Part shown: positions 5,333 through 36,486 of the stretch, in pieces
Position numbering within the stretch: position 1 is the stretch's first letter
Layout: the number at the start of each line of letters is the position of its first letter
NCBI RefSeq assembly: GCF_014873145.1
Contig: NZ_JADBEK010000001.1
Location: forward strand, 9,052,001 to 9,116,000
Direction: 5' to 3'
DNA from: Nonomuraea angiospora
Lineage (GTDB): Bacteria; Actinomycetota; Actinomycetes; Streptosporangiales; Streptosporangiaceae
Length of the DNA stretch: 64,000 nucleotides
The notes under the pieces: model-generated
The model's input: only the letters and a program-made list of their open reading frames with translations
Told to the model about the DNA's origin: nothing
The model's database searches: none
Made by a program: the position numbers and the translations under genes

Positions 5333-5463
5333 GACCCGAGTGCTCCCCGAGACGTATCCGAACAATCCTCGGGAAGACCATAGCCGCTCGGTATAACTCA
5401 GGCGACGGTAGGTGGTCACACCTTAAGTTGAGGGCGCTTTCCCCCATGTTCCAGGAGGTATGC

Positions 5464-5736
5464 ATGAGCCAGAGCATGTTCGGCGGCGACCTCGCCGAGA
5501 TGCAGCAGATGGCCAGCCAGTTCACGCAGCAGGCTGAGGCGGTCCGCACCACGATGACCGCGCTCGACCGCGAGGCCGCCAAGGTCGGCACAGCGTGGAC
5601 GGGGCCGGGCGCCAACCGTTTCCAACAGTCGTGGCAGAACTACCGCACGGCCTTCCAGCGCATGGCAGAAGAGCTCCAGGAGGCCTCGCGGGTCATCGGC
5701 ACCTACCGCCAGAACATCGAGTCCGCGACGCAGTGA
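5464..5736 (+). CDS. WXG100 family type VII secretion protein
   Basis: A 90-residue ESAT-6-like protein. The central turn reads WTGPGANRF, matching the W-x-G signature with the conserved downstream aromatic, flanked by two predicted helices. Such proteins form helical-hairpin dimers exported by the ESX/type VII machinery. AGGAGG at 5453-5458 precedes ATG 5464; the frame could extend to 5428 but the Shine-Dalgarno site decides. It stands immediately before the mycosin gene. The C-terminal QNIESATQ is short and lacks an obvious YxxxD/E signal, so its partner may carry the export signal. Confidence 0.93.
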   Translation: MSQSMFGGDLAEMQQMASQFTQQAEAVRTTMTALDREAAKVGTAWTGPGANRFQQSWQNYRTAFQRMAEELQEASRVIGTYRQNIESATQ

Positions 5737-5846: not shown

Positions 5847-6986
5847 ATGATTGGTCGCGCCTTGGTGGCGAGCGTGCTCGCCCTGCAGGTCCCGCTGGCG
5901 CCCGCGGCCGTGAGGGACGAGTGCCGGCCGCCCAGGGGCACCATGCAGGTGGGCGAGTCCTGGGCGCAGAAACGGCTCGACCCCAAACGCGTCTGGTCGC
6001 TGTCCACCGGCGCGGGCGTGAAAGTGGCCATCGTCGACAGCGGCGTCGACCTGCAGCATCCGCAGATCCGCCTGGCGGGCCGGGCCGACCTCACCGGCAC
6101 CGGCTACCGCGACTGCGTCGGCCACGGGACCGCGGTGGCGGGCATCATCGGCGCCCAGTACATGCAGGGCGTGCTCTTCTACGGCATGGCGCCGGGCGCG
6201 CGGCTGCTGTCGTACAAGCAGACCGCCTCAGAGCGGAACGGCGACCCCGACCTGCTGGTCAAGGCCATCAAGGCGGCCGCGGACGAGGGCGCCAAGGTCA
6301 TCAACGTGTCGGTGTCCACGAGCGACCTGCCCTCGCTGCGCGAGGTGGTGCAGTACGCGCTCGCCAAGGACGCGGTGATCGTGGCCGCGGCCGGCAACGT
6401 CACGAAGGAGGACGGCACCCCCGTACCGGCCTATCCGGCCGCCTATGACGGGGTGCTCGCGGTGGGCGCGGCGGGGCCGAACGGCATCCTGTCCAACTTC
6501 TCCAACGTCAAGACCCCCGTCGCCGTGCTCGGCCCCGGCCAGGGCGTCACCTCCACCTGGCCCGGCCGCTCCTATTTCAAGGACCTCAACGGCACCAGCT
6601 ACGCCGCCCCCTACGTCGCCGGGGTGGCCGCGCTCGTCCGGGCCCGCTTCCCGAAGCTGGACCAGGCCCAGGTACGCCAGCGCATCATCGCCACCGCCGA
6701 CGGCGCCACGGGCAGCGGCAAGGGCGCGGGCATGGTCAACCCGATGCTCGCGCTCAGCGCGATCCTCCCGTACGAGCCCGCGGACGCCCCCGTGGTCGCG
6801 CCCCCTCCGCCCAGCCCGCTCGCCGCGGACGCCGTGGCCAAGGTCCCGCCCGTGGACCATGACGCGATCAATCTGGCCCTGATCATCGCGGGATCGGCGC
6901 TCGGGCTGGCGCTGCTGCTGACGGCCGCCCGCGTCGTGATCCCGATGGGCCGCCGCAGGGGCTGGCGGCCCGGCCGTCCCGAGTGA
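5847..6986 (+). CDS. mycP: Type VII secretion-associated mycosin serine protease
   Basis: A 379-residue subtilisin-family (S8) protease. A signal peptide (VASVLALQVPLAPAA) leads into the catalytic domain. The triad is visible: Asp64 in VAIVDSGVD, His93 in GHGTAVAGII and Ser251 in NGTSYAAPYVAG. A Pro-rich linker precedes a C-terminal transmembrane helix around residues 345-367 and a basic cytosolic tail. This is the mycosin plan, in which the protease sits outside the membrane, anchored to the type VII apparatus, and stabilises it or trims substrates. No ribosome site precedes ATG 5847, so the transcript may be leaderless. Its neighbours are a WXG100 gene upstream and a pseudokinase downstream. 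Confidence 0.92.
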   Translation: MIGRALVASVLALQVPLAPAAVRDECRPPRGTMQVGESWAQKRLDPKRVWSLSTGAGVKVAIVDSGVDLQHPQIRLAGRADLTGTGYRDCVGHGTAVAGIIGAQYMQGVLFYGMAPGARLLSYKQTASERNGDPDLLVKAIKAAADEGAKVINVSVSTSDLPSLREVVQYALAKDAVIVAAAGNVTKEDGTPVPAYPAAYDGVLAVGAAGPNGILSNFSNVKTPVAVLGPGQGVTSTWPGRSYFKDLNGTSYAAPYVAGVAALVRARFPKLDQAQVRQRIIATADGATGSGKGAGMVNPMLALSAILPYEPADAPVVAPPPPSPLAADAVAKVPPVDHDAINLALIIAGSALGLALLLTAARVVIPMGRRRGWRPGRPE

Positions 6987-7055: not shown

Positions 7056-7079
7056 GATCTGGTTCAATGTGACCAGATC
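7056..7079. promoter_or_regulatory. Inverted repeat upstream of the pseudokinase gene
   Basis: GATCTGGT (7056-7063) and ACCAGATC (7072-7079) form a perfect 8-bp inverted repeat with an 8-base spacer, ending 25 bases before the ATG at 7105. The spacing suits a dimeric repressor or activator. It could also form an RNA hairpin in the 5' leader. Confidence 0.35.
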
Positions 7080-7104
7080 ATGCTTTGCCGTGAAAGGTTT
7101 AGTC

Positions 7105-9312
7105 ATGCACGCTTTGCGCCCTGGTGATCCAGAGCGGATCGGCGATCTCAGCATTGTTGGCCGGCTGGGAGAGGGGCCGCGGGGCGAGGTCTTCCTTGGC
7201 CGTGAGTCCGAGGACGCCGCCATCGTCGCGGTGAAGCTGCTCCCGGCGGACCCGGACGCCGGCGCCGACGCGCCGGTCAAGCACCTGGCCGCCAAACAGG
7301 TCTCCAGCTCGTACGTGGCCAGGGTGCTGGACGCCGGAATGCACGAGGACCGCCCGTACGTCGTCAGAGAGCACGTCGAGGGCAAGAGCCTGGCCCAGGC
7401 GGTGGCCGAGGACGGGCCGCTGACCGGGGACGCGCTCGAACGGGTCGCGGTCGGGGTGCTGACCGCCCTGTCGGCCGTCCACCTCGCGGGCCGCTCGCAC
7501 AAGTCGCTCACCCCCCACAACGTCATCCTCGGCCCCGAGGGCCCGCGGGTCACCGACGCCGGGATCGGCGAACCGGTGGGCGAGATCGCCTACCAGGCCC
7601 CCGAGCAGCTGCTCGGCCTGCAGTACGGCCCCTACGCCGACGTGTTCGCCTGGGCGGCGACCATCGCGTTCGCGGCCACGGGCAAGGCGCCGTTCGCCGA
7701 CCGTGACGCGGTGCTGACCGGCGAGCCCGAGGTGGACATCGAGGCCGAGCCGGTGCGCAGGGTGGTGCTGGCGGCGCTGTCCAAGGAGGTCGGCAAGCGG
7801 CCGACCACGTACAGCGCGCTCATGCAGCTGCTCGGCGGCAACGCCAAGCCGCCCGCCGCCCCGCAGACCGCCATCGAGGGCGTGCCGATCCAGGGCATCC
7901 CGGTGCCCGGCGTGCCCGGCGTGCCCAGCCAGGGCGGCCCCGTGCCGCCGCAGGACACGCTGGTCGCCGGCCCGCCGACGCTGCAGGAGGGCCCGCCGCC
8001 CGTCCAGGGGCCGCCGTTCGTGCCCGGCCCCCCGATGCAGGGCCCCCCGATGCAGGGCCCCCCGATGCAGGGCCCCCCGATGCAGGGCCCCCCGATGCAG
8101 GGCCCGCCCATGCAGGGCCCGCCCATGCAGGGCCTGCCGGTGCCGCATCAGCACCAGTCCGAGGCGCCGATGTGGGGCCCGCCGGAGCCGGACCAGCAGC
8201 CGCAGCACATCAGGCTGGAGGCCGTGCCCTCCGGGGCCGCCGCCCGGCCGCGCCGCGGTTTCCCGCTGGGCCTGGTCGCCGGGGTCGCCGTGGTCGCGCT
8301 CATCTCGGTCCTGGGCCTGTGGGGCGCGAACAGGTACGTGAAGCTGCAGCAGGTCAACCCGGCCTCCATGGCGCAGGCCAACTCGGACGAGATCCCGGTG
8401 CCCGCCAGCGCCCCGGCGAGCCCCGGCACGCAGGGCACGGACCCCCTCGGCGGCGGCAGCGATCCGCAGCAGACGCAGCCCGAGGCCACGGTGCCCTGGG
8501 GCGCCACGGCCGCCCCGGACGACTCGGGCGTCGGCCCGCTGACGCTGCCCACCGAGTGGTCCTCGACCGCGCCCCAGGTGCCCCAGGTGCCCGAGCTGAC
8601 CACCGCGCCCACCACCCCGGCCGCGATCCCGACCCAGCCGGTCCCGACGCAGCCGGTTCCCACCGCCACGCAGCCGGCCGCGAACAACACGGCCGAGTCG
8701 ACGCCCACGCCGAGCAAGACGCGGCACGCGAAGCCGACGGCGACCGTCACGAAGACGGTGGACAGGACGCCCACCCCGACGCCGACGCCGACGCCCACGC
8801 CGACCGAGGAGCCGACGAAGGAGCCGACGAGGGAGCCGGAGCCCACCCCGACTCCGACGAAGACGACGGCCAAGCCGACTCCGACCAAGACCACGGCCAA
8901 GCCGACGCCGACGCCCACCAAGACGACGGCCAAGCCCACGCCCACGAAGACGACGGCCAAGCCGACTCCGACCCCGACCAGGACCACGAACCCGTACTCG
9001 CCCACCCAGGTGTGCGGCTCCGGCTTCTCGGTCCAGCGGTCCAGCCCGTTCGGGGGCGGGGTGACGTACCAGCTCTGGAACAACAGCACCGGCCAGAACT
9101 GCGTGGTCACCATCAAGACCACTGAGATCGGCAAGAAGACGCCGGTCAGCGCGACCCTGGAGGTCCAGGGCGGCGGCAGCCAGACGGACTCCGGCAGCTT
9201 CGAGTTCTACGCCGGCCCGGTCAAGCTGCCCGCCAGGGGCAAGTGCGTGCGCTACTCCGGCAGCGCCGGCGGCACCAGCACCAGCGCGGGCTGGGGCAGC
9301 TGCGGAGCCTGA
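7105..9312 (+). CDS. Membrane-anchored Ser/Thr pseudokinase with Pro/Thr-rich extracytoplasmic part
   Basis: A 735-residue protein. Residues 15-255 resemble a bacterial Ser/Thr kinase: Gly loop GRLGEGPRGEVFLG, Lys44 in VAVK and YQAPEQLL. However, the HRD motif is H132-K-S, so the catalytic Asp is gone, and DFG reads D151-A-G. The helix C region is shortened without a clear Glu. A Gly/Pro linker holds seven MQG(P/L)P pentapeptides (8035-8139). A transmembrane helix lies near residues 388-408. Outside the membrane is a long Thr/Pro stretch with TTAKPTPT repeats and a C-terminal beta-rich domain with three Cys. ATG 7105 is preferred because GAAAGG lies at 7092-7097. Its position next to mycosin suggests signalling to, or scaffolding of, the secretion system. 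Confidence 0.8.
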   Translation: MHALRPGDPERIGDLSIVGRLGEGPRGEVFLGRESEDAAIVAVKLLPADPDAGADAPVKHLAAKQVSSSYVARVLDAGMHEDRPYVVREHVEGKSLAQAVAEDGPLTGDALERVAVGVLTALSAVHLAGRSHKSLTPHNVILGPEGPRVTDAGIGEPVGEIAYQAPEQLLGLQYGPYADVFAWAATIAFAATGKAPFADRDAVLTGEPEVDIEAEPVRRVVLAALSKEVGKRPTTYSALMQLLGGNAKPPAAPQTAIEGVPIQGIPVPGVPGVPSQGGPVPPQDTLVAGPPTLQEGPPPVQGPPFVPGPPMQGPPMQGPPMQGPPMQGPPMQGPPMQGPPMQGLPVPHQHQSEAPMWGPPEPDQQPQHIRLEAVPSGAAARPRRGFPLGLVAGVAVVALISVLGLWGANRYVKLQQVNPASMAQANSDEIPVPASAPASPGTQGTDPLGGGSDPQQTQPEATVPWGATAAPDDSGVGPLTLPTEWSSTAPQVPQVPELTTAPTTPAAIPTQPVPTQPVPTATQPAANNTAESTPTPSKTRHAKPTATVTKTVDRTPTPTPTPTPTPTEEPTKEPTREPEPTPTPTKTTAKPTPTKTTAKPTPTPTKTTAKPTPTKTTAKPTPTPTRTTNPYSPTQVCGSGFSVQRSSPFGGGVTYQLWNNSTGQNCVVTIKTTEIGKKTPVSATLEVQGGGSQTDSGSFEFYAGPVKLPARGKCVRYSGSAGGTSTSAGWGSCGA
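8035..8139 (+). repeat. 15-bp in-frame tandem repeat encoding MQGPP
   Basis: Seven 15-base units encode MQG(P/L)P within the pseudokinase linker. The first five are nearly identical at DNA level and the last two diverge at third positions, implying recent expansion by slippage. Confidence 0.9.
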
Positions 9313-9368: not shown

Positions 9369-10463
9369 TCAGTAGCCGACGTAGTCCAGGCCGCGCTTGG
9401 TGTTGACCACGCCGGGCACGTTCGACACCGAGCCGTAGCGCGAGATCGCGTACCGCACGCCGGCGATGATGTTGTCCACCGGGTCGTAGATGTTCTTGTG
9501 CCCGGCCAGCGCGTACGAGTTGAACGTCGGGTCGATGGTCTGCATGAGGCCCTTGGACGGCGTGCCGTTGGCCGCGTTGGAGTCCCAGTTGTTGATCGCG
9601 TTGGGATTCCCGCCGGACTCGTGCTGGATGATCATCCAGATGTCGCTGGCGTTCATCTTCGAGGCCGGCACGCCGTTCTTCTCCAGGATCGCGATGGCCT
9701 GCTCGATCCACTCCTTGACCTGGCCCGTCGGCGCGGGACCGCCTCCGGCGGGCGGGGGGCCGCTGGGGCCGTAGCCCCCGAAGCCGGACGGGCCGCCGCC
9801 GCCGGGCCCGTTCCCGCCGGCCCCTTGCAGGGTGGTGCGCGGCTGGTACTCGGGATCCGGCTGCCACTCGATCTTCCGCCCGGGCGCCGGAGTGAACTCC
9901 TGGGTGGAGACGTCCGGGATCGCGTGGAAAGTGAGCGTGCGGTCTTTCAGGAACCCGTCGATGTCCTTCTTGGCCTTGCTGACCGCCTTGTCCGCCGAGT
10001 CCACCCACGGCTGCGCTTCGGTCTTCGCCTGGTCGACCAGCTTCCGCAACCCGGGCTCCACGTCCGCCTCCTTGGCGTCGGGGTGCTCGCGGTAGTAGGC
10101 GGTCTTGTAGTTGGCGGCGCTGGTGGTCAGGTCCCGGCAGATGGAGCCGATCTCGGTGTGCGAGGTACGCAGGGCGGAGGCGGCGGCCTCGAGCGAGGAC
10201 GCGGAGTTGGACAGCGCCAGCTTCAGGTCCTCGGCCGCGGTGCCGTACTTGCGCATGTAGGTGGCGAACTGGTCGGAGGAGTGGCCCTTCCAGGCGTCGT
10301 CCACCGTCTGGACCGCGGCCCCCAGCGCCCCGTCGAACTCGTTGATGTCGCCCGACACACTGCGCCAGGCGGCGGCGATCTTGTCGATGGCGCCGGGGTC
10401 GCCAGTCACCTTGTTCAGCATGGCGTCGAGCGCGTCGCCTCCGGGCAGGTGGGCGACGCTCAT
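9369..10463 (-). CDS. WXG100-lytic transglycosylase (SLT) fusion protein
   Basis: A 364-residue two-part protein. Residues 1-110 form a WXG100-like helical hairpin with W58-K-G60 (DAWKGHSSDQF), followed by a helical stretch to about residue 190. After a Gly/Pro-rich linker comes a soluble lytic transglycosylase domain: catalytic Glu282 in IIQHESGGNP, then GLMQTIDPTF and a NIIAGVRYAI segment typical of the family. It would cleave peptidoglycan glycan strands. There is no Sec signal peptide, so export through the type VII machinery is inferred from the WXG part and from ATGA coupling to the upstream gene. The start at 10463 overlaps that gene's stop. A polymorphic enzyme delivered to the wall or to rivals is possible. 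Confidence 0.9.
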   Translation of the reverse strand: MSVAHLPGGDALDAMLNKVTGDPGAIDKIAAAWRSVSGDINEFDGALGAAVQTVDDAWKGHSSDQFATYMRKYGTAAEDLKLALSNSASSLEAAASALRTSHTEIGSICRDLTTSAANYKTAYYREHPDAKEADVEPGLRKLVDQAKTEAQPWVDSADKAVSKAKKDIDGFLKDRTLTFHAIPDVSTQEFTPAPGRKIEWQPDPEYQPRTTLQGAGGNGPGGGGPSGFGGYGPSGPPPAGGGPAPTGQVKEWIEQAIAILEKNGVPASKMNASDIWMIIQHESGGNPNAINNWDSNAANGTPSKGLMQTIDPTFNSYALAGHKNIYDPVDNIIAGVRYAISRYGSVSNVPGVVNTKRGLDYVGY

Positions 10464-14876: not shown

Positions 14877-16364
14877 GTGGCCGTGACCTCGCTCGCCCAC
14901 CAGCCGATGCAGCCCATGCGGCCGATGCCGCCCGGGCCGCCCGGGCTGCCGCCGACGCATCCTGGCGCTCAGCCGCAGATGCGCGCGCCGGTGGCGCCGT
15001 TGTGCCACGTCACGATCGTGGCCCCGCGCCGCCGGGTCGATCTGGCGCTGCCTGCCGACATCCCGCTCCCGCACGTGCTGCCAGGCCTCCTGCGCGCCGT
15101 CGGCGAGGCAGGCGGCGACGCGGCCGGACCGCCCGGCTGGGTGCTCCAGCGGCTCGGGGGCGCGCCGTTCGACCTCGGGCAGACGCTCGCGTCCCTGGGC
15201 GTGCTGGACGGCGAACTGCTCTACCTGCGGCCGCGGGAGCTCACGCTGCCGCCCGCGCTCTTCGACGACGTGGCCGACGTGGTCGCCACGGGCGTCAAGG
15301 ACAGCTCGGGCAAATGGGAGGCCCGCCACACCCGGGCCATGGGCGCGGGCGCCGCCGCCATCATGCTCGCGCTCGGCGCTCCCGCGCTGGTGCTGTCCGG
15401 GAGCGCGCCGCTGGGCGTGACCGTGGTCGCGGGCATGCTCGCGCTGCTGCTGGTCGGCGTCAGCGCGGCCCTGTCCAGGGCCGTCGGCGACTCCTCCGCG
15501 GGCGCGCTGATCGGCTACGCGGCGCTGCCGTACGCGTTCCTGGCCGGCCTGTACGGCCTGGTCAGCGGCTCCACCCTGAGTGGGCTCGGCGCCCCGCACC
15601 TGCTGGCCGCGCTGACCTGCACCGCGCTGGTGGCCACCATCGGCGGCACCGTGGTGGCCGACGGAGTCGCGGGTTTCCTCGGCACGGCCATCGCGACCGT
15701 GGCAGGGGCGCTGGCCTCCGCCGTGGTCATGGTGTTCGCTGTCCCCGCGGCGGGCGTGGCGGCGATGACGGTGACGATCCTGATCGCGTTCAGCCCGCTG
15801 ATCCCGACGCTGTCGTTCAGGATCGCCAGGGTGCCGCTGCCGGCCCTGCCCACCAACGCCGAGGAGCTGCGGGCCGACAACCAGCGGCTGGACAGCGAGG
15901 GCGTCCTGGCCCGCACCGCCCAGGCCCGCCGCTACGCCACCGGCATGGTCGTCGGCATCGTGCTCACCGCCATCGGCGCGATGGTCTTCCTGGTCACCAC
16001 GCCGACCTGGATGGCGGTCTCGATGACCGTCGTGCTCTCGCTGGTGCTGCTGCTGCGCGCCCGCGTCTTCCACGGCCTCGGCCAGCGGCTCTGGCTGCTG
16101 GGCACCGGCCTGGCCGGGCTGATCGCGGTGGGGATCGAGCTGAGCGCGGGCGCGGGCACGGTGGCCGCGGCGGCCGTCGTGATGGGCGTGCTCTGGCTGG
16201 CGATGCTGGTCGTCGGGCTCGGCCTGTGGCTGCCGTCCGGGCGGCTCTCGCCGTTCTGGGGGCGCGCGGGCGAGATCGTGGACGTCATCCTGCTGATCGC
16301 GCTCTTCCCACTGGCGCTCGGCGTCCTCGACGTCTACACCTGGATCCGCGGCCTGGCGGGCTGA
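14877..16364 (+). CDS. eccD: EccD, type VII secretion integral membrane protein
   Basis: A 495-residue EccD. After a Pro/Met-rich N-terminus, residues 40-125 form the ubiquitin-like YukD domain (CHVTIVAPRRRVDLALPADI through GELLYLRP). The rest contains about eleven hydrophobic segments, such as AAAIMLALGAPALVLSG and GTVAAAAVVMGVLWLAMLVVG, that form the membrane vestibule in known ESX structures. The GTG at 14877 has little ribosome site; GTG 14883 with GGAG at 14874 is an equal candidate. It is transcribed away from eccC and ends in an unusual decamer-repeat stretch. No eccE follows, in agreement with non-mycobacterial ESX loci. Confidence 0.93.
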   Translation: MAVTSLAHQPMQPMRPMPPGPPGLPPTHPGAQPQMRAPVAPLCHVTIVAPRRRVDLALPADIPLPHVLPGLLRAVGEAGGDAAGPPGWVLQRLGGAPFDLGQTLASLGVLDGELLYLRPRELTLPPALFDDVADVVATGVKDSSGKWEARHTRAMGAGAAAIMLALGAPALVLSGSAPLGVTVVAGMLALLLVGVSAALSRAVGDSSAGALIGYAALPYAFLAGLYGLVSGSTLSGLGAPHLLAALTCTALVATIGGTVVADGVAGFLGTAIATVAGALASAVVMVFAVPAAGVAAMTVTILIAFSPLIPTLSFRIARVPLPALPTNAEELRADNQRLDSEGVLARTAQARRYATGMVVGIVLTAIGAMVFLVTTPTWMAVSMTVVLSLVLLLRARVFHGLGQRLWLLGTGLAGLIAVGIELSAGAGTVAAAAVVMGVLWLAMLVVGLGLWLPSGRLSPFWGRAGEIVDVILLIALFPLALGVLDVYTWIRGLAG

Positions 16365-16556: not shown

Positions 16557-16991
16557 TCAGACGTCGCGGGGGTCCTGCTCGCCGAGCCGCCGGAGCCGGT
16601 CGTTCCGTTCGGCCGTCTCCGCGCCGAACATGTCCTGGAACTCGGCGAACTGCCGCTGGATCTCCTCCAGCCCGATGATCTGCGACTGCGGCACGGCCAG
16701 CAGCTCCTGGGCCTGGCGCCCCTGGTCCTCCTGGGCCTGGCGCACCGCCTGGACGACCTCTTCCGCCAGGGTCCTGACGTCCAGGCGCAGCACGCGCGGC
16801 GAGAAGACCACGCTCTGGAGCCGGCCGTCGGCGTCCACGACCGCGGTGGTCAGGCCGCTGCGGCTCTCTCCCTTGCCGGTGATCAGCTGCAGCTCGGCGG
16901 CGGCCGCGGCCAGGCGCGTGAGCTCGCGCTCGTTGTCCCGCAGGAGTTTGTCCACGTCGTCGTCGGTGTAGTCCATGACACGCCACGCCAT
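16557..16991 (-). CDS. YbaB/EbfC-fold protein in the type VII locus
   Basis: A 144-residue protein with the YbaB/EbfC layout: N-terminal helix (VDKLLRDNERELTRL), a short antiparallel sheet with SRSGLTTAVVDADGRLQSVVF, and a C-terminal helix (LAEEVVQAVRQAQ). YbaB proteins bind nucleoid DNA, but the fold also occurs in ESX accessory proteins such as mycobacterial EspL, so a secretion-linked role is equally likely. The C-terminal extension ends with acidic and basic residues (RRLGEQDPRDV). The start is uncertain between 16991 and 16976; neither has a good ribosome site. A second copy of the fold lies at 18.6 kb. Confidence 0.8.
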   Translation of the reverse strand: MAWRVMDYTDDDVDKLLRDNERELTRLAAAAAELQLITGKGESRSGLTTAVVDADGRLQSVVFSPRVLRLDVRTLAEEVVQAVRQAQEDQGRQAQELLAVPQSQIIGLEEIQRQFAEFQDMFGAETAERNDRLRRLGEQDPRDV

Positions 16992-18645: not shown

Positions 18646-19086
18646 ATGATCGAGCGGGAGTTCGGGGCGCTGGACATCGACCGGATCCTCCGGAACGCCG
18701 ACCAGCAGATGGCGCGGGCCGGCGAGTTCCAGCAGGTCCTGCAGGACCTGACGGGCCACGCCCAGGACGAGGACGGCTTCGTCACGGCCGAGTGCGGCAG
18801 CACGGGGCTCAAGGAGCTCGTCCTGCACCCCAAGGCCATGCGCCTCAACTCGGCCGACCTGGCCGAGCGCATCAAGGCCGTCATCGCCGAGGCCAACGCC
18901 GACCTGCAGCGGCGGATCTCGGAGGAGATGGGCAACGTCTTCGGCGAGGAGAACAACCCCATGCGCTTCGCCCAGAACCCCGAGGGCGGCCTGGAGCTGG
19001 TACGGCAGGCCGAGGCGGCCTACAACCGCACGTACGAGGACCTCATGGGAGAGCTGGACAGGATCCGGCAGCGCATGGAGGGCTGA
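18646..19086 (+). CDS. YbaB/EbfC-fold protein (second copy)
   Basis: A 146-residue YbaB/EbfC-like protein. The helix DIDRILRNADQQMARAGEF leads to a sheet containing GFVTAECGSTGLKELVLHP and a C-terminal helix LAERIKAVIAEANADLQRR, then an extra helical tail ending in RIRQRMEG. It is closer to canonical YbaB than the 16.6-kb copy. In this position, after two ESX-type genes and before a terminator, it may chaperone or regulate the secretion substrates rather than coat DNA. ATG 18646 has only a weak GAGGG immediately ahead. Confidence 0.83.
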   Translation: MIEREFGALDIDRILRNADQQMARAGEFQQVLQDLTGHAQDEDGFVTAECGSTGLKELVLHPKAMRLNSADLAERIKAVIAEANADLQRRISEEMGNVFGEENNPMRFAQNPEGGLELVRQAEAAYNRTYEDLMGELDRIRQRMEG

Positions 19087-19130: not shown

Positions 19131-20474
19131 TCAGCCGATGCGGTCGGGGCCGATCTGGTGCGGGGGCGACCAGATGTCCCCTTCGGGGTCGTAGATCTCG
19201 CGGTTGCGCTCGCTGCTCTGGTCGCCGCCCGCGCCCATGCCACCCGGCGGGTACGCCATGAGCCCCGTCCCCGAGGCCGCCGATCCGCCGCGGAGCACCG
19301 ACGGGGCCGCCCCCGCCGCCGAGCCGCCCGTGCCGTACCAGGTGTTCGCGCCGCCGGGGCTCTGCCCCGGAACCGGGGAGAACGGGGTGCTCGTCGGCAC
19401 CTGGGTGGTGGTCGGGTTGGTGAGCACGGTGGGCGTGGACTGGTGCGGGTAACCCGTGGTCGGCGTCGTGGTCGTGGTGGTGGTCGGGAAATTCGGGTTT
19501 CCGGCGTCGGCGAGCTGGGTCTTCGGCGGGTCGGCGCCGATCACCGGAGGCACGCTCTGGTCCTGGTCCCCGGGCTTCTGCGGCGAGTCGCCGGTGCCGG
19601 GGCCGGTGCCCGGCTGCTGGGGGTTGCCGGGGTCCTGGGTTCCCGTGGACGGATCGTCCTGACCCTTGCCCGGGTCCTGGCCCGGATCGTCGCGGCCCGG
19701 GTCCTGGTCCTTGCCGGGGTTCTGGTCGCCCTTGCCGTCGGAGCCGTTGGAGCCGTCGGAGCCGTCACGACCGCCGCCGCTGCTGGTGCCGTCGGAGCCG
19801 GTCGAGCCCTTCGAGCCGTCGCCGGTCCAGTACCTCGTCTCGCCCGACGGCGTCTTGGTGCCGCTGCCGGGGTCGAGGGGCTGCTGCTTCTGGGTCTCCA
19901 CCACCATGGGCTGGATCTCGGGCAGCTTGAACGCCAGGCCGTCGGCGATCTGCGCGTTCAGCTCGTTGATCTTGTTGTTGAGCTTCTCCAGATGCGCCCG
20001 GGCCGCCTGGTCCACGAGATATCCGGCGCTGGTGCCCCACTGCAGGTTGACGTTCGTCGAGGGCTCGTTGTCGACATCGGTCGTGGTGCTGAGGGTGGTG
20101 GGCCCAGGCATGCTCGTCTTGGACGTCCTGAGCTGCTGGGCGTACTCGACCATCGGCTTGCCGGTCTTCTCCATGGCGTCGCCGAGCGCGGCGGCGCTCG
20201 CGTGCAGCAGCCGCAGCGCCTCCAGCGCCGCGGTGGCCCCATCGCCGCGCCAGACTGCGGAGAGCTCCTCAGCGGCCTTCCAGAGCGCGCCCTCGAGCCC
20301 GTTCTTGCCGTGGAGTACCGCGGCGGCCTTGACGTAGCTGTTTCCGGCGTTCTCGATGCGGCCCGGGTCGGTGTCCTTCAAATAGGAGACGATCTGGGCC
20401 CTGGTGGTGAGGGGGCCGGGCTTGGATTCGCCGAGGTAGGTATAGAGCCTGATCGGCTTCCACTCGTCACCCAT
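19131..20474 (-). CDS. PPE-like type VII secretion substrate (1)
   Basis: A 447-residue protein, last gene of the six-gene minus-strand operon. Residues 1-190 are helical and hold a WXG-like turn, W-R-G in AVWRGDGATAALEAL. A long low-complexity region rich in Gly, Asp, Pro and Thr follows. The final residues, including REIYDPEGDIWSPPHQIGP, match an acidic plus Trp plus IG pattern shared with the proteins at 20907 and 23683. Actinobacterial PPE-like proteins pair with a WXG100-size partner, here probably the 137-residue product just upstream. ATG 20474 has AGGGATGG upstream. Export to the surface through the nearby EccBCD machine is inferred. Confidence 0.75.
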   Translation of the reverse strand: MGDEWKPIRLYTYLGESKPGPLTTRAQIVSYLKDTDPGRIENAGNSYVKAAAVLHGKNGLEGALWKAAEELSAVWRGDGATAALEALRLLHASAAALGDAMEKTGKPMVEYAQQLRTSKTSMPGPTTLSTTTDVDNEPSTNVNLQWGTSAGYLVDQAARAHLEKLNNKINELNAQIADGLAFKLPEIQPMVVETQKQQPLDPGSGTKTPSGETRYWTGDGSKGSTGSDGTSSGGGRDGSDGSNGSDGKGDQNPGKDQDPGRDDPGQDPGKGQDDPSTGTQDPGNPQQPGTGPGTGDSPQKPGDQDQSVPPVIGADPPKTQLADAGNPNFPTTTTTTTPTTGYPHQSTPTVLTNPTTTQVPTSTPFSPVPGQSPGGANTWYGTGGSAAGAAPSVLRGGSAASGTGLMAYPPGGMGAGGDQSSERNREIYDPEGDIWSPPHQIGPDRIG

Positions 20475-20496: not shown

Positions 20497-20910
20497 TCAC
20501 GCACTGCTGTCCCGGTGCCCTTTTTCGTAGTTGGAGACGGCCTGCTCGACCGCGTCGGCCCACTTCTCGACGTAGTCGACGAGCTGGCTGTAGCTCTCGC
20601 CGAACACCTTGTACGCCGTTTCGAAGTTGGCGCCGAAGTTGCTGGCCACCTCCCACGTGCCAGTTGACTCCGGCCCGACGTTCCCGAGCCCCTCCACCTC
20701 GCTGATCGTGCCGGGGCCGCTCCACGTGGCGCTCATCGACGGCTGCGGGTTGCCGTGCACGGAGCCCAGGTTCTTGCGCAGCCTCGAGACGACGTCCCTG
20801 ATCCCCTCGTGATCCGCGTACTGCCCGCCGCTGTTCCCGCCGAGCCCGGGGAAGTCCTTGGCGAGCTCCAGTCCCGGGACCGGCGAGTCGTTGTCCTTCG
20901 GAACGCTCAC
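20497..20910 (-). CDS. WXG100-like partner protein (137 aa)
   Basis: A 137-residue protein between two PPE-like genes. It has a W-S-G turn (TWSGPG) and a C-terminal long helix (ETAYKVFGESYSQLVDYVEKWADAVEQAV). The length and helical plan suit a WXG100-like partner of the adjacent PPE-like protein. It starts with GTG 20910 in a GTGA overlap with the upstream gene's stop, showing translational coupling. The next gene begins 22 bases after its stop. Exact family name not recognised. Confidence 0.72.
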   Translation of the reverse strand: MSVPKDNDSPVPGLELAKDFPGLGGNSGGQYADHEGIRDVVSRLRKNLGSVHGNPQPSMSATWSGPGTISEVEGLGNVGPESTGTWEVASNFGANFETAYKVFGESYSQLVDYVEKWADAVEQAVSNYEKGHRDSSA

Positions 20911-22340
20911 GCCTTGCCTTTCGAGTCACCCTTGATGGTGTGGTTGGTCGTCGTCACGTCGCTCCTGAAGAGGTCCTCGTCCTCCAGGAGGTACGTGGTC
21001 CGCTCCATCTCCCCCCGCTCCTGGGCGCCCCGGCCGCCGGACGGCGGGACCGCCGAGACCGCGGAGGGGCCGCCGCCCAGGCCGCGCAGGGCGGCCGCGC
21101 TCACGTTGTTGCCCGCCCCGGAAGCCTGGCCTCCACCCCCGCCGAAGCTGCTCCCTCCCGTGGTGTAGCCGCTGTGCGGGCTGCCGATGCCCGTGGTGGG
21201 CAGGCTGGTGGACGGGCCGGACAGGGACGGATCGGGCATCCCGGCCAGGGTCGTCGTCGGGTTCCCGGCGTTCGGGCTCTGGGAGCCGTTCAGGTTCGGG
21301 TTCACGTTCGCGTTCGCGTTCAGGGCGTTGGAGGGGTCGGTCAGGCCGGGGACGTTGCCCGCGCCGTTCTGGCCGTTGCCGCCGTTCCCGTTCTGGCCGT
21401 TCCCGATTCCCGTGCCCACGGTCCCGACCGTGCCGCCGTCGGGGAACGTGCTCGTCGGGTTGTTCATGTCGATGCCCGGGATCTGGTGCCGGCTGAGGTC
21501 CTGCAGGCCGTCCTGGTTCAGGCCGTCGAAGCCGGCCGTCGGGTCGTACGCCTGATTGAGGCCGGCCGGGATGTTGCCGCCGATCCCGGTTTTCCCGCCG
21601 AACGGGCCGGTGGGAACGTTCGGCGCGAGCGTCATGAACTGCGGGATGTCGGTCCTGAGCTCGGCGGGGAACACGTCGTTGTTGAGCTTGGTGTCCTGGC
21701 TCAGCAGCTTGATGGCCTCGGCGGCCTTCTTCATGTCCTTCTCCTCCTTGGAGTCGCCCCAGAGGTTGGCGAAGGGAAGGTCGCTGATGAAGCGGGTGAT
21801 GCCGCCGACGAGGACGCCCACGCCCGCGCCGATCACCACACCCGGCACGGCTCCCACGCCGCCGAAGAAGGAGCCGATGGCGGCCCCGGCCACGCCGCCC
21901 GTGACGGCGGCCTCACCGAAGTCGATGTCGCTGCCGGGGTTGTCGGGCACGTCTCCCTTGGCCGCCGACAACGTCCGGGCGTGGACGATGAGCGCGGGGG
22001 CGACACCGTGCGGGTTCTTCGGGGGGTTCTTGGGATCGACGGGCTGGTCGCTGATGGTGGTCGAGATGTCCGCCGCCGCCTCGCGCAGCCTGCGCAGCTG
22101 CGTCTTGACGGTCTTGGCGTCCTCGCCCGCGGTCCAGTGCTTGTCCAGCTCCCGCAGATGCTTGTCGATCACGTCGACGAGATTGTCGAGCCGTACCTTG
22201 GCTTCGAGGAACTCGGCCGCGGCCTGGCCGATGAGCTGGGGCTTGTTCTTGGCCAGCGTGTCGCGGAGCAGATCGAGCGTCGCACCCTCGAACTCGAGGC
22301 TGCCGATCTGGCCCCTGATGGCCGCCTGATACTCCGCCAT
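20907..22340 (-). CDS. PPE-like type VII secretion substrate (2) with glycine zipper
   Basis: A 477-residue protein. The N-terminal 100 residues form a helical hairpin with a WXG-like turn (HWTAGEDAKTVKTQL). Around residues 145-185 lies a hydrophobic Gly-zipper region (GVAGAAIGSFFGGVGAVPG then VVIGAGVGVLVGGI), suggesting membrane insertion. The rest is Asn/Gly/Pro-rich, with GNGQNGNGGNGQNG runs. The C-terminus carries RTTYLLEDEDLFRSD, the shared acidic/aromatic motif. ATG 22340 overlaps the stop of the preceding gene. It is probably exported and may insert into a membrane as an effector or pore; that is inference. Confidence 0.75.
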   Translation of the reverse strand: MAEYQAAIRGQIGSLEFEGATLDLLRDTLAKNKPQLIGQAAAEFLEAKVRLDNLVDVIDKHLRELDKHWTAGEDAKTVKTQLRRLREAAADISTTISDQPVDPKNPPKNPHGVAPALIVHARTLSAAKGDVPDNPGSDIDFGEAAVTGGVAGAAIGSFFGGVGAVPGVVIGAGVGVLVGGITRFISDLPFANLWGDSKEEKDMKKAAEAIKLLSQDTKLNNDVFPAELRTDIPQFMTLAPNVPTGPFGGKTGIGGNIPAGLNQAYDPTAGFDGLNQDGLQDLSRHQIPGIDMNNPTSTFPDGGTVGTVGTGIGNGQNGNGGNGQNGAGNVPGLTDPSNALNANANVNPNLNGSQSPNAGNPTTTLAGMPDPSLSGPSTSLPTTGIGSPHSGYTTGGSSFGGGGGQASGAGNNVSAAALRGLGGGPSAVSAVPPSGGRGAQERGEMERTTYLLEDEDLFRSDVTTTNHTIKGDSKGKA

Positions 22341-22720
22341 CAGACCTGCATCGCCTTCGACCGGCTCTCGCTGTCCACCTCGGCGCCGTCGTAGTTCTTC
22401 AACGCCTGCTCGAGGAGGCCGATGACGTTCGCCACCTGGCCGGTGATGTTCGAGTAGGTGCTGGTGACGGTCGTGACGGCGTTGGTGGTGCTCTGCCGGA
22501 AGCCCATGGCCGCCGGCCAGAACCCGCCCAGGGCGTCGGGGTCGCCGCTCAACTGCTCGACGGGACCGGAGCCCGTGAAGATGGCCTGCACGGCGCCGCT
22601 GCCGCCGGTCTTGCCGGCCTCGTGGCCGGGATCCAGCATGGCGAGGGCCTCTTCCAGGTCCGCCTTGGCCGCCTTGATCGCCCTCCGGCTGAGCTCAACA
22701 CCGCCGTTGTCGCTGCCCAT
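22340..22720 (-). CDS. ESX-associated helical protein (126 aa)
   Basis: A 126-residue protein with an N-terminal helix (RRAIKAAKADLEEALAML), a Gly-rich loop and a C-terminal helix (NITGQVANVIGLLEQALKNY). The central FWPAAMGFRQST segment replaces a strict W-x-G. Size and position, between a WXG100 gene and a PPE-like gene with ATGA overlap, suggest it is the dimer partner of the latter. GGGGGG lies just before ATG 22720. No named family recognised. Confidence 0.7.
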   Translation of the reverse strand: MGSDNGGVELSRRAIKAAKADLEEALAMLDPGHEAGKTGGSGAVQAIFTGSGPVEQLSGDPDALGGFWPAAMGFRQSTTNAVTTVTSTYSNITGQVANVIGLLEQALKNYDGAEVDSESRSKAMQV

Positions 22721-22755: not shown

Positions 22756-23067
22756 TTACTTGCCGTCGAAGATCTGGGAGTTGATCCTGTCGACCTGCTG
22801 CATGTTCAGGTTCGTGACGTTGATGTTCTTCTTCATCAGGTCGATGAACTGCGACATGTCGTTGGCCTCGCGCTCCCAGAGCTGCCTGACCTCGTCGAAG
22901 ACGGTCTTGGCCTCGCCCTGCCAGATCGCGCTCTTGGCGAGCAGGTCCCGCTCCAGGTTGTCCAGCTCGGTCACCATGTCGTTGAACGCCTTGGCGAAGT
23001 CGGTCTCACCCTGGCTGAGGCCGGAGTAGTTGACCTTTGTAACGTCGAAGATGTCATCCGCGGGCAT
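22756..23067 (-). CDS. WXG100 family protein (2)
   Basis: A 103-residue ESAT-6-like protein. W-Q-G in AIWQGEAKTVFDEV marks the turn between two helices, with the conserved Phe downstream. The C-terminal helix ends in NMQQVDRINSQIF. It is the second of two adjacent WXG100 genes, so the pair probably forms a heterodimer similar to EsxA-EsxB. ATG 23067 has GGGGAGG five bases upstream. The genes downstream overlap, so all six are likely one transcript. Confidence 0.92.
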   Translation of the reverse strand: MPADDIFDVTKVNYSGLSQGETDFAKAFNDMVTELDNLERDLLAKSAIWQGEAKTVFDEVRQLWEREANDMSQFIDLMKKNINVTNLNMQQVDRINSQIFDGK

Positions 23068-23085: not shown

Positions 23086-23427
23086 CTAGCTGAGACGCGA
23101 GTCGAACTGCACGTTGATCATGTTGGCGATCTGGTTCATCGCCTCGGTCCGCTCTTGGTTGAACGCCTGGTAGTTCTTGTTGCTGGTGCCGATGTTCTCG
23201 GCCAGGCGGCGCAGGCTGCCCAGGATGACGTCCATCCGCTCGTGCCACTTCTTGTGGACGGCGTCGAACGCGGCCTCCGACTGGCCCAGCCAGTGCGCCT
23301 TGAGGCTGATGCCGGCCTGGTCGAGCTGCTGCTGGATGCCACGCAGGCGCTCGGCGGCGTCCTCGATGCGGGTGACGGCGGCGATGAGATCGGCTTCACT
23401 TACTTGAGCCTGTGGTTGTGCCCCCAC
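23086..23427 (-). CDS. WXG100 family protein (1)
   Basis: A 113-residue ESAT-6-like protein and the first gene of the minus-strand ESX operon. W-L-G in HWLGQSEAAFDAV is the signature turn. The C-terminal helix after it is long and ends in MINVQFDSRLS. It begins with GTG 23427, with GGGAGGG five bases upstream. The second WXG100 gene starts 18 bases after the stop, making an EsxA/EsxB-type pair. The promoter should be in the 255-base gap towards 23683. Confidence 0.93.
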   Translation of the reverse strand: MGAQPQAQVSEADLIAAVTRIEDAAERLRGIQQQLDQAGISLKAHWLGQSEAAFDAVHKKWHERMDVILGSLRRLAENIGTSNKNYQAFNQERTEAMNQIANMINVQFDSRLS

Positions 23428-25924: not shown

Positions 25925-27340
25925 CTACCGGCTGCCGACGGTCAGGGGCACCATGGCAGCGGCGGGATCCAGCGTCGGCCCCTGCGGGATCGCGTGCATG
26001 ATGTTCGTCGGCACAGGCGCGATGTCCGCGGCGTCATACCCGAGCTTCGCCAGCACGTCAGCCGACGGGATCGGATAGCGCACCCCCTGATCGCTGATCA
26101 GTGCCAGCACGCTCGGCACCGCGCTGAGCTGGCCCTCGCCGGGCAGCACCCCGGCCACCACGGCGCTGCCCGGCGGGAGTAGCACCTGGTCGAAGCGGTC
26201 CTGTACGCCTGAGCTCGACGGCGTCGGAATCGTGACCCTGCTGCCGACCGTCACCTTGGCCACGACCGAGCCGGCCGCCGTGTTCGGATACACCGAGCAG
26301 AGCGGCGTCGAGCCGGACACGTTGATCACCTTGGGCATGGTCGTCGGCAGGGTGGGGTCCATGACGTTCTGGCGCGAGGGCGATGCATTGGCCGAGGCCG
26401 CGTCGATCTGGATCTCCCGCGCCACCCGGTTGCCGTACGCCTTCTTGATGTTCGGGTCCTCCAGCAGGAGCCTGGCCTGGACGGGGGAGATGGGCGCCAG
26501 GCCGTCGTTGAGCAGCACGTACCACCGAGCGGCCGTGCCCGGCATGGCCGGGACCACGAACACCTGCCCCACCGCCGCCGTGACCTTCCCGTTGGCGCGT
26601 ACCTTCCTGCCGAGGTTCGCCACGTTGGGGCCCTTGAAGTCGCGGCCGACCGGCAGCGCCTGCAGCCATGCCGCCGGCACCTTCCTGGGTTGCGCGTTGA
26701 GCGCCCGCACGCCGTGCTCGTTGACGCGCATGCGGCGATTACCCCAGATCACCCAGTTCTGCTCCCCGTCGGAGACCACCATCGCGTCCCCGCCCACGGG
26801 CCTCCCGCCGAGGTCAGTGCCCCCGACAAGGGTCGTGTACGGCTTGCGCCCGCCCGTACTGTCGGGCCCCTCCACCACGCACACCGACCACGGCGCCTTG
26901 ACGAGCTTCTTCCGGTCGGGCAGCGAGTCGGGCGCCCCGGAGATCCCGATGAGCGGCCCTCTGGCGTACCCGGCCAGCGAGGCGGCGCTCACGCTCCGGG
27001 TGTTGATCTCCCCGGCGTCCAGCACGAGCCTGGCCGACACGTAGTTCGCCACCGGCAGCAGCCGGCGCTGCTGCTGGCTGTAGATGAACTTGGCCCCGCT
27101 CTCCTCCTCCACCAGCAACTGCCCCGGGTCGGTCAGCTTGGTCGCGTTCCCGGGCCGCACCAGCCCCCAGATCCCGAACACCGCCATCACCAGGACCCCG
27201 ATCAGGATCCCGCCGAACGTGGCGACGTTCTGCCGGCGCATGGGGGACTCGGGGACGTCGGGCTCGGCCTGCAGGAGCGCCATGCCAAGCCTCTGCTGCA
27301 TCAAGCGGTGTGCCTGGTAGAGGTCCTTCTTGGTCTGCAC
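25925..27340 (-). CDS. eccB: EccB, type VII secretion core protein
   Basis: A 471-residue EccB. The cytosolic N-terminus KKDLYQAHRLMQQRLGMALL is the family signature, followed by one transmembrane helix (residues about 43-62, GILIGVLVMAVFGIWGLV) and a large extracytoplasmic domain with SGAKFIYSQQQRRLLPV and GRPVG-type repeats. Two Cys (SVCVVEG and PLCSVYP) probably form the conserved disulfide. EccB anchors the export channel outside the membrane. GTG 27340 is chosen because GGGGAGG lies five bases upstream; the frame extends further without homology. It is separated from the other core genes by the substrate operons. Confidence 0.94.
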   Translation of the reverse strand: MQTKKDLYQAHRLMQQRLGMALLQAEPDVPESPMRRQNVATFGGILIGVLVMAVFGIWGLVRPGNATKLTDPGQLLVEEESGAKFIYSQQQRRLLPVANYVSARLVLDAGEINTRSVSAASLAGYARGPLIGISGAPDSLPDRKKLVKAPWSVCVVEGPDSTGGRKPYTTLVGGTDLGGRPVGGDAMVVSDGEQNWVIWGNRRMRVNEHGVRALNAQPRKVPAAWLQALPVGRDFKGPNVANLGRKVRANGKVTAAVGQVFVVPAMPGTAARWYVLLNDGLAPISPVQARLLLEDPNIKKAYGNRVAREIQIDAASANASPSRQNVMDPTLPTTMPKVINVSGSTPLCSVYPNTAAGSVVAKVTVGSRVTIPTPSSSGVQDRFDQVLLPPGSAVVAGVLPGEGQLSAVPSVLALISDQGVRYPIPSADVLAKLGYDAADIAPVPTNIMHAIPQGPTLDPAAAMVPLTVGSR

Positions 27341-27605
27341 AGCGCCTCCCCGCGTCAGAATCCGCGCATCAGCATAAACGCCCCAAACCCCACCCGCCCC
27401 AATCCTCCCAATTCCCGCCCCCCCTTCACCCACCCCGCCGTCGGTTCCACCCCCGGCAATTTCACTCGGCCCCTTGACCCCGCCAGCCCTAGGCTCCGAC
27501 CCGCCCTCATGAGGCCCGCTGCCAGCCCCACCCCTGCCCGGCGTAGCGCCGTCCCAGCCCCTCCGCCACCACCTGGCCCGGCGCGTCTAACCCACCTCAG
27601 CCCGC

Positions 27606-30992: not shown

Positions 30993-33900
30993 TCAGTCGT
31001 CGTCGGGGAGTGCCGCTTGGATGGGGGTGATGTTGCCCGTTCTCACCAGGAAGCCTCGGCCAGGGGGGCCGCCGACCGTTCCGCGGGGGAGGCGGATCGA
31101 GAAGATGTCGCCGTCGGCCTGGTTCTGGACGGCCAGCAGCACCCCGGTGCGGGCCTTGCGCGTCTCGGCGACGAACCCGCGATAGGCGACGGCCAGATCC
31201 CCGGTCGTGCCGGCGATCAGCAACCCGTGATCGCCGTCCCGGCCCGACCGGAGCACCTCCTCCAGCGCCATCCCCAGGGGACCGTCCGCGTTGATCAGCT
31301 CGGCGTCGTCCACCAGCACCACGTACTGCTCCAGCTCCGCCACCAGCTCCGGCAGGTTGGCGGCGTTGCCGTCCAGCACGGCCAGTGCACCGTTCAGCTC
31401 CCTTAACGGGCTGCGTCTGGGCGCGACGGCGATGACGGGCGTGCCCCGGGCGATGAGCGAATGGGCGGCGGTCAGCAGGACGGACGAGCGGCCGGAGCGG
31501 GACGGACCGGCGATCACGGCGCCGGGACCGTGGGCCAGCAAATCGAGCCCGAGCGGGGCCAGGGCGTCGCCGCCGGCACCGATCAGTGCCCACAACGGGG
31601 ACGGGGGTGTGAACGTCGCGTCCAGGGCGAGTGTTTGGGAGGCCGTGACGCGCATGGGGAGGGCGTCCACTCGCAAGGGGGGCTCGCCGTTCCACTGCCG
31701 GCCGCCCCGGGCGGCGCCAGCGGACCGCCCGTGACCTCGTCGAGGGCTCTCCGCATCCGGCGTGCGGGCCAGGGCTTGGAAGGCGGCGACCTGGGCCGGG
31801 CCCGACGGGTCGGGGGAGAGCAGCGCGATGTGGTGCTCCACGATGCCGTGCTCGCCCATCGAGAGCGCTCGGCCGGGTGGCATCGACGAGGGCAAGCCCT
31901 TGAGGGGGAAGCCGGCCAGGCCGAAGTCGGAGGAGTCCGACAGGCGCAGGAGCAGGCGGTCGTCGAAGACGGTCGAGACCTGGCCGAGCAGGCCCGACCG
32001 GTCGCTGGTGACCACGGCCCTGAACCCGACCGCCGGGCCTTCGCGCATGAGCTGGAGCAGCGACTCGATCAGGCGGCCGTAGTCGTAGCTCTCGAAGGCG
32101 GCGACGAAGCCCTCCCAGCGATCGAGCATGAACACCAGCCAGGGCAGGCGGTGGCCGGCTTGGCGGTATTCGGCAAGGGAGGCGTGCCCCGCCTCGGCCA
32201 GGAGCTGCTGGCGGCGGCCCACCTCGGCACGCAGGCGGGTGAGCAGGCGTTCGACCCGGTCGATCTGGTCGCGGGTCACGACGGCGCCGCAGTGGGGCAT
32301 CGTGACCAGGGGCAGGAGCGCCCCGGAGCCGCAGTCGACCGCGTGGACGTGGACGTCTTCCGGGGAGGCGTGGGCCGCGATGGAGCCCGCGATCGTGCGT
32401 AGTGCCGTCGATCTGCCGGAGCGGGCGGCCCCGGCGATGAGCAGGTGGCCTCCGTTGGCCAGGTCCAGCGCGAGAGGGGAGCGGTCCTGCGCCCATGGTC
32501 GGTCGGTCAGGCCGTAAGGCAGGGGCGGGACTTCGACGAACGCACCCGATGGGGATGCCGCGCCATGGGGCTCCGGGTGGGAGGGGAAGGGGTGGTCAGG
32601 GTGTGTGCCGCTCGGTAGAGGGCCTTTCGAACCTCCGGAGGCGCGGTGGGTCGCTGGGTGAAGCGCGGGGTGACCTGTGGGCGGGTGTGCGGGGAGGCCG
32701 AGGGAAGGCTGGGCCGAGCCCTTCACGGAGACCTGGACGGGGTCATGGGGGCGGGCGGCGATCCCTGGAATGTGCCGGGAAGCGTCTTTCGGTGGCGGGT
32801 TGGGAGGTGTTGTCTGAGGCGTAGGGGAGCCGCTGGAAGGTGAGGAGGCGGTGGCCGGGGATGGCGTGGTGAGGGCCGGGAGGTCCAGGACGAAGTGGGT
32901 GGGGAGGGGATCGAGCCAGGGGCTGGGCTGGACGGGGACCGCGGCCAGGTGGGTGGCCTCGATGAGGGCGTTGGCGACCAGGGAGAGGTCGGTGACCGTC
33001 GAGTCCTCCTCCGGCTCCGGCGGGGGCGGCAGGGGTTTGCCCAGCGAGCGCCAGCTCACCTCCAGCACCCTGATGGCGGCGCCCGGCCCGGCGAGCGGGC
33101 CCGCCGAACCCGGGGCGGGGCTGCGGCCTCCTACCCTGGCCGTCTGCACGGCGGTCGCGGCCCCCACGCCGGAACGGACGTAGCAGCGACCGGGCGTCGA
33201 CTTGGAGATGTGGGCGGCGTCCGGGAGGTCGATGACGTCGGAGGACTCCGCGGGCTCGGTCACGCGCAGGGCGATGCGCAACGACGTGTTCGCCTGGATG
33301 TCGGCCGTGACCACGCCCGCGGGGCGCTGCGTGGCCAGGATGAGGTGGATGCCCAGCGAGCGGCCACGGCGGGCGATGTCGACCAGGCCGGTGACGAAGT
33401 CGGGCAGCTCGGCCACCAGGGCGGCGAACTCGTCGATGATCAGCACCAGGCGCGGCATGCCCGTGCCCGTGTAGTCCTCGATGTCCTTGGCCCCGGCCGC
33501 CGCCAGCAGCCGCTCTCGCCGGCGGATCTCGGCCGCCAGCGAGTCGAGGGCCCGCTGGGTCAGGTGGCCGTCGAGGTCGCTGACCATGCCGACCGTGTGC
33601 GGCAGGCGTACACACTCCTTGAAGGCGGCGCCGCCCTTGTAGTCGATCAGCACGAACGTGAGCTGGTCGGGCCGGTTGGCCACCGCCAGCGAGCAGATCA
33701 GCGTCTGCAGCAGCTCCGACTTGCCCGCGCCCGTGGTGCCGGCGATCAGGCCGTGGGGGCCGTCGAGCCTGAGGTCGACCGAGAACGGCCCCTCGGGGCC
33801 GATGCCGATCAGCGCGCTCGTGGAGCCCTGGGCACGCCATCGCCCGGCCAGCTCCTGTCCGGACGGGCTGGGCATGCGCATCAGGTCGAGCAGGCGGACG

Positions 33901-36358: not shown

Positions 36359-36486
36359 CTGGCTGGGCGTCGTTCGCGTTGCGCCGGGCTGCGCCGTGCA
36401 ACGTCTCGCCGACGCGCGCCCGTGGGATCCGTAGGACCTGCCGGTGGGACCGGCGTGAGCGCATGGGACCAGTGGGACCTCTGGGG

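Follow-up and report, generated by a model that had tools for sequence, protein, structure and literature searches.

An ESX-type N-terminus joined to a peptidoglycan-hydrolase domain in the eccC gene run of Nonomuraea angiospora

Introduction

How ESX substrates pass through the cell wall of actinomycetes is, to our knowledge, an open question. A locus of Nonomuraea angiospora raises this question in a concrete form. In the window analyzed here, a stretch of 64,000 nucleotides from a genome of 13.09 Mb in one contig, a hydrolase with the shape of an ESX substrate is apparently co-translated with the ESX motor. This makes it testable whether a secretion channel exports the enzyme that opens its way. 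We therefore ask how this protein is built, how firmly its gene is linked to eccC, and whose wall it is likely to cut.

Results

Architecture of the fusion protein and its gene run

The gene under study (Table 1) is a complete open reading frame at the position given in the initial annotation of this DNA, which had left its strand unnamed. The proposed architecture of a WXG100-like hairpin (W58-K-G60) joined to an SLT domain with Glu282 is confirmed by Pfam matches over the respective cut-offs. PF06013 (WXG100) covers residues 22-99 of the protein (P0002) with 36.4 bits (cut-off 27.3; E 6.6e-9), and PF01464 (SLT) covers residues 271-347 with 46.8 bits (cut-off 21.3; E 2.5e-12). The NCBIfam WXG100 model TIGR03930 scores 34.6 bits, under its own cut-off of 44.85, and the PPE profile PF00823 reaches 18.5 bits, below the Pfam cut-off of 26. 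Glu282 is the glutamate of an E-S motif, which we take to be the catalytic residue of the SLT family. The designation 'lytic transglycosylase' holds as a statement of family membership according to Pfam, but it is a family name, and SLT-family muramidases exist: in the accessible text of the respective papers, the SLT-family domains of PrgK (PMC11323569) and CwlP (PMC10653849) are reported as muramidases.

The claimed absence of a Sec signal was also borne out by a hydropathy scan (Kyte-Doolittle, first 60 residues). No Sec-like hydrophobic stretch was found at the N-terminus of P0002 (peak 11-residue mean of 0.83) or in any of the 120 homologues listed (peak mean of at most 1.88). Structure prediction of the protein alone, which had been suggested as a check, was performed with AF2 (mean pLDDT 83.1, pTM 0.57, 56 sequences). 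The model contains long helices up to residue 173 (9-20, 23-57, 61-126 and 132-173, with high pLDDT), followed by the linker and a C-terminal helical domain in which the loop 290-307 is of low confidence. The linker contains a GFGGYGPSGPPPAGGG-like sequence that is conserved across the SLT fusions. Around GFGGYGPSGPPPAGGGPAPTG the linker of the SLT fusions shows a degree of conservation that is unusual in disordered linkers (mean identity of the linker 0.56); by eye, this stretch was not seen in the NlpC/P60 siblings described below.

Table 1. Coordinates of the fusion gene, its parts and the surrounding ESX genes (positions in the window)
Feature	Coordinates	Strand	Remarks
WXG100 protein	5428..5736	plus	PF06013
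Mycosin-like S8 protease	5847..6986	plus	PF00082; TIGR03921 270.1 bits, just under cut-off 278.75
WXG100-SLT fusion P0002	9369..10463	minus	complete ORF, 364 aa
P0002 SLT domain, residues 246-364	9372..9728	minus	PF01464 at 271-347
P0002 Glu282 codon	9618-9620	minus	in H281-E282-S-G-G-N-P
P0002 Gly/Pro-rich linker, residues 206-245	9729..9848	minus	mostly low model confidence
P0002 N-domain, residues 1-205	9849..10463	minus	WXG100 hairpin and second helical pair
P0002 W58-K-G60	10284-10292	minus	within N-domain
111-aa helical hairpin P0003	10460..10795	minus	proposed export partner
eccC, ESX motor ATPase, 1329 aa	10792..14781	minus	TIGR03924 985.8 bits, TIGR03925 884 bits, over cut-off
eccD	14877..16364	plus	TIGR03920, PF19053
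WXG100 protein, tandem pair member	22756..23067	minus	PF06013
WXG100 protein, tandem pair member	23086..23427	minus	PF06013; TIGR03930 over cut-off
eccB	25925..27433	minus	TIGR03919, PF05108

In the gene run, eccC is followed by the gene of P0003 and then by the fusion gene, with an ATGA overlap at both junctions. With EccC identified by TIGR03924 and TIGR03925, the proposed coupling to eccC through a small helical protein stands; this neighbour, given as 110 residues long, has 111 amino acids from the first ATG and 110 from the second.

Several further genes of the locus are recorded here. About 16 kb from eccC, another ATPase gene (30993-36533, minus strand) encodes an EssC/EccC-like protein of at most 1846 aa; its scores of 489 bits for TIGR03928 and 394 bits for TIGR03924 are both under cut-off. 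YbaB/EbfC-family proteins are encoded close to eccD and putative substrates (16557-16991, minus; 18646-19086, plus). A Ser/Thr kinase gene (7069-9312, plus) whose product has a Pro/Thr-rich C-terminal half converges with the fusion gene, and the same convergence is seen in several loci of Nonomuraea and Microbispora.

The fusion family and its linkage to eccC

A protein search with P0002 returned at least 1580 matches at E ≤0.001 among 7994 scored candidates. The nearest homologue among the matches listed is a protein of Nonomuraea jabiensis (95% identical). All 120 homologues listed carry both PF06013 and PF01464 in the precomputed Pfam column, as well as a W-x-G motif. Glu282 is invariant in the 56 aligned sequences (P0002 and 55 of the 120 homologues listed), and the exact string ESGG[ND][PR] is absent from 14 of the 120. 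In the N-domain, W58, G60 and F66 are invariant across 35 sequences, NlpC/P60 carriers among them.

The linkage to eccC was assessed in 121 genomes of the order, using thresholds of E 1e-20 for the fusion family (16 candidates scored per genome) and E 1e-50 for EccC. The fusion family was matched in 25 genomes and EccC in 115. Since nearly all genomes possess EccC (115 of 121), the co-occurrence of both in 25 of 25 genomes is uninformative. As to distance, 18 of the 27 SLT fusions counted in these 25 genomes lie less than 3 kb from the EccCa match, 21 less than 5 kb and 26 less than 20 kb; these copies share ancestry and do not represent 27 independent events. For this count, a single ORF of G111 that had given two rows was counted once, and a row of G077 duplicating another contig was left out. 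The 27th fusion, from G077, borders on the end of its contig, in which the final 235 bases of the eccC contig reappear.

A second set consisted of the best 80 of 584 confirmed loci, by rank. An EccC-like ORF is present in 28 of these loci, namely in 28 of the 35 top-ranked (L009-L043) and in none of the other 45, a split that was chosen after the list was seen and in a set in which some loci end at contig ends. By genus name, all 28 belong to the Streptosporangiaceae, and the seven remaining top-ranked loci come from one Streptosporangium (L017) and six Pseudonocardiaceae. P0002 and the copies of the order are encoded with ESX core genes, which was not seen in the 45 lower-ranked loci. Homology and gene linkage support the view that a peptidoglycan-hydrolase domain on a predicted ESX-type N-terminus is coupled to eccC, and that this link is kept within the order.

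The fusion family is missing from 90 of the 115 genomes with EccC. In the EccC windows of 20 of these 90 genomes, the profiles of the partner, the SLT domain and the NlpC domain (the last built from eight sequences) gave no match, and the N-domain profile gave weak matches alone (best 1.3e-10). The cassette is thus no general need of the ESX machine. This bears on the initial proposal that the enzyme opens the wall for secretion, which is plausible in itself but has to be reconciled with EccC in 115 genomes and the family in just 25; for pilus passage, the other purpose suggested, we found no support here. The same absence, together with Pseudonocardiaceae loci that keep the partner and the fusion with no EccC-like ORF in the flanks retrieved (10 kb at most), and with 10 of 11 NlpC-type genes that have no EccC in the fetched stretch (see below), would agree with a general hydrolase of wall growth, used in hyphal growth or sporulation, for which ESX is a mere exit and which has no role in the machine. 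The ATGA coupling to eccC and the close eccC linkage of the 27 copies of the order argue against such an enzyme, and we consider it quite improbable.

The small partner

P0003 has no match in Pfam or NCBIfam at E 0.1, and ten members of its family gave Pfam matches far under cut-off only. The AF2 model is a helical hairpin (mean pLDDT 88.4). A direct search with P0003 returned 12 others besides itself, and those with an organism name are all from Nonomuraea. By means of a profile built from these sequences (E ≤0.001, some matches reaching merely 2e-4 to 5e-4), a partner-family ORF was detected 5' of the fusion in 42 of the best 80 loci. These are 32 of the 35 top-ranked loci (missing in L033, L037 and L038) and 10 of the 45 lower-ranked ones, all ten Pseudonocardiaceae by genus name. 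No partner was seen at the second SLT copy of this genome (L097). Common features of the family are the helical hairpin and an FGxL motif. The family is unnamed and is defined here together with the N-domain that is common to SLT and NlpC/P60 enzymes.

We infer that P0003 and the N-domain of the fusion form an export pair. A small partner gene before the gene of a long protein is also found in PE/PPE pairs; in structural comparisons of P0002 and P0003, PE/PPE structures score level with unrelated helical bundles. Mycobacterial-type T7SSa export involves a [HY]xxx[DE] motif after the helical hairpin of one partner. This motif is absent from P0003 and occurs in P0002 at 180 and 326 only, away from the end of the N-domain hairpin. 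It may or may not carry weight here: of the WXG100 tandem pair of the locus, one protein has none and the other only HERMD at 62, and a 126-aa neighbour has YDGAE. The locus contains two further small-before-large arrangements on the minus strand (22340-22720 with 20907-22340, and 20497-20910 with 19131-20474), one of which includes the 126-aa protein; its YDGAE lies at 110, near the end, and is a motif absent from the fusion and P0003.

A second cargo on the same N-domain

The order survey yielded 39 proteins with the N-domain in a search that was seeded with SLT fusions: 27 with SLT, 10 with intact NlpC/P60 and 2 broken copies. Twelve matches cover the N-domain alone, and ten of them carry NlpC/P60, eight according to Pfam and two (G087, G105) by a DCSGL motif and likeness to those eight. 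The broken copies are a frameshifted NlpC-type gene (G084) and a second copy in G090 with a stop and no hydrolase domain. Among the intact copies of this SLT-seeded search, 37 of 37 bear a peptidoglycan-hydrolase domain. The genome studied here encodes one NlpC/P60 form (L096) in addition to two SLT fusions, and 10 of the 25 family-bearing genomes of the order also have the NlpC/P60 form.

Including the frameshifted gene, 10 of the 11 NlpC-type genes are preceded by a partner-like ORF, with none at G082. The fetched stretch, which comprised 13-15 kb for nine genes and 5.5 kb for two, contains EccC for one of the 11 only (G074), where the partner, N-NlpC/P60 and N-SLT stand in tandem and adjoin eccC.

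With N-domains of both kinds as queries, 18 of 394 genomes were matched class-wide. All 14 strong places encode SLT or NlpC/P60. Nine of the 10 weak places (E 1e-10 to 1e-16; all but G326) were fetched: G452 is an SLT protein, and the remaining eight resemble WXG100 proteins and have a different C-terminus or none. Taken together, the N-domain and its partner look like an ESX cassette for peptidoglycan hydrolases; neither the partner family nor the NlpC/P60 siblings figured in the initial annotation.

Phage and Nocardia relatives of the SLT domain

The SLT domain matches 940 phage records, two of which fall into the 60-80% identity band. The 25 phage records listed are 46-56% identical to it, most of them annotated as tape-measure proteins, and one fusion homologue itself bears the database name tape-measure protein. 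The sole PDB sequence match of the domain is a designed repeat protein, which we regard as due to chance.

After near-copies had been dropped from 131 distinct domains, an unrooted tree was calculated from the remaining 87 rows (118 columns); its group labels come from a motif rule, which gave the label 'cell_other' to at least one of the fusions (L031). A branch with support of 97/98 has 61 of the 62 cellular rows and one of the 25 viral rows on one side. The cellular exception is a Nocardia row (L080) on a very long branch. The filter let through no Sec-exported SLT domain of this genome, and the tree therefore offers no comparison of that kind. Phage tape-measure SLT domains are close in sequence, yet most are kept apart in this unrooted tree. 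The number of phage matches and the tape-measure name would be expected if the enzyme were phage-derived, had no role in ESX and stood beside eccC by accident, but against this count the split of cellular and viral rows, the WXG100-like N-domain and the recurrence of the eccC link in several genera, and we give this reading as a whole hardly any credence. The viral-collection row that groups with the cellular ones (L101, 3001-3357) could stem from a prophage or from a contig assigned to the wrong collection.

Nocardia also has proteins of this SLT subtype with other N-termini, some of which match DUF4226 (L061, L046 and L075, below cut-off in L046); L061 also has a match to EspA/EspE below cut-off. 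Perhaps these DUF4226-SLT proteins are a second route to an ESX-linked hydrolase. Some other carriers of the subtype do not look ESX-like: L045 and L054 start with a LysM-like repeat, as judged by eye, and L087 has a hydrophobic, signal-like stretch.

Own wall or competitor wall

A polymorphic toxin is expected to combine a conserved N-domain with variable C-domains and to be accompanied by an immunity gene. Among the fusions, mean pairwise identity is 0.76 in the SLT domain and 0.39 in the N-domain (1540 pairs). This is the reverse of the toxin pattern and favours the producer's own wall as target. Diverse C-terminal toxins on a conserved N-domain were not found either, since the C-domain is the more conserved one and is SLT or NlpC/P60 in every intact copy of the order survey.

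Furthermore, the region downstream of the fusion was surveyed in 43 loci (within 400 bases, with a GC-position ORF filter). The nearest ORF is convergent in 21 loci, on the same strand in 16 and was not found in 6. The recurring same-strand followers are a family of 376-415 aa in 7 loci, aminotransferase-like by eye, a family of ~560 aa in 2 loci, and proteins of 213-215 aa in 2 Streptosporangium loci, metallo-hydrolase-like by eye. A further group of 11 ORFs from 8 loci appears opposite the convergent kinase gene, and these ORFs are probably not genes. Beyond these, no small follower on the same strand recurs within this distance in the 43 loci, which again favours the producer's own wall.

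The initial annotation had also considered an attack on rivals. In that case the fusion would be an antibacterial ESX effector whose SLT domain (NlpC/P60 in relatives) attacks the walls of competitors, and P0003, as the small gene present 5' of the fusion, could encode the inhibitor or immunity protein. The cassette is patchy across the order, as is often the case with effectors, the N-domain is modular, and the accessible text of PMC3482391 counts domains of the NlpC/P60 and peptidoglycan glycohydrolase kinds among the predicted toxins of other secretion systems. The conservation of the C-domain, the occurrence in 37 intact copies of no more than two cargo classes, each of them peptidoglycan hydrolases, and the lack of a recurring small follower in the 43 loci weaken this proposal, and we judge it unlikely. 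Comparative sequence data favour own-wall remodelling, which fits them better than a polymorphic toxin does.

Discussion

In the mechanism that we propose, P0003 and the N-domain of ~205 aa would pair as a helical export unit, in the manner of PE/PPE or LXG/Lap, and EccC from the same gene run would carry this pair across the membrane, thereby delivering the C-terminal SLT domain to the wall. There, Glu282 would cut glycan strands, the main substrate most likely being the wall of the producer itself. In some relatives, NlpC/P60 on the N-domain would be the likely cutter of peptide bonds, so that the cassette could cut both strands and cross-links. EccC-dependent export, enzymatic activity and the own-wall target are what we infer for the fusion; with some reserve, we consider it probable that it is a partner-paired SLT enzyme that is exported by EccC and cuts mainly its producer's own wall. 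A bolder extension, which we put forward tentatively and would not yet bet on, is that ESX exports its own wall-opening kit, a module of partner and N-domain with a glycan-strand cutter co-translated with the motor and, in 10 of the 25 family-bearing genomes of the order, also a peptide cutter, and that the machine does not depend on Sec-exported hydrolases for this purpose.

In a full-text search of the open-licence literature, as far as its texts were accessible, we recognised no paper describing a WXG100-SLT fusion or the module. Databases already contain the annotations 'transglycosylase SLT domain-containing protein' and 'WXG100 family type VII secretion target'. Hydrolases linked to type VII systems are also already known, namely EssH and the NlpC/P60 enzymes of plasmids. 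In the accessible text of PMC13059805, EssH of Staphylococcus aureus, a CHAP-domain protein with an unstructured N-terminus, is Sec-exported and serves the T7SSb; the wall-spanning EsaA is described there as not conserved in T7SSa. EssH and the fusion have in common that a type VII system has a peptidoglycan hydrolase genetically dedicated to it. However, the fusion combines a WXG100-type domain with an SLT domain, has a small partner and belongs to a T7SSa; neither a Sec signal nor a CHAP domain as in EssH was found in P0002 by hydropathy scan and Pfam. The NlpC/P60 hydrolases at T7SSa clusters of mycobacterial plasmids, as cited in the same source, resemble the cassette by description in being peptidoglycan hydrolases linked to T7SSa genes. 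PrgK of the pCF10 T4SS, according to the accessible text of PMC11323569, shares with the fusion an SLT domain in a wall hydrolase of a Gram-positive secretion system, a likeness by description and not by sequence; it differs in belonging to a T4SS and in its architecture.

With regard to the proposed export unit, the PE/PPE pairs (PDB 2g38, 4w4k, 5xfs) differ in that unrelated BAR domains score equally in the comparison, the PPE score of the fusion is under the Pfam cut-off, and the fusion and P0003 are without YxxxD/E. The LXG/Lap systems (accessible text of PMC9600955; PDB 8gmh) share with the present system one or more small partners and a long protein whose C-domain is distinct from a type VII N-domain. 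In LXG proteins, however, the C-domains are variable toxins, whereas here the C-domain is better conserved than the N-domain and is a peptidoglycan hydrolase in the 37 intact copies.
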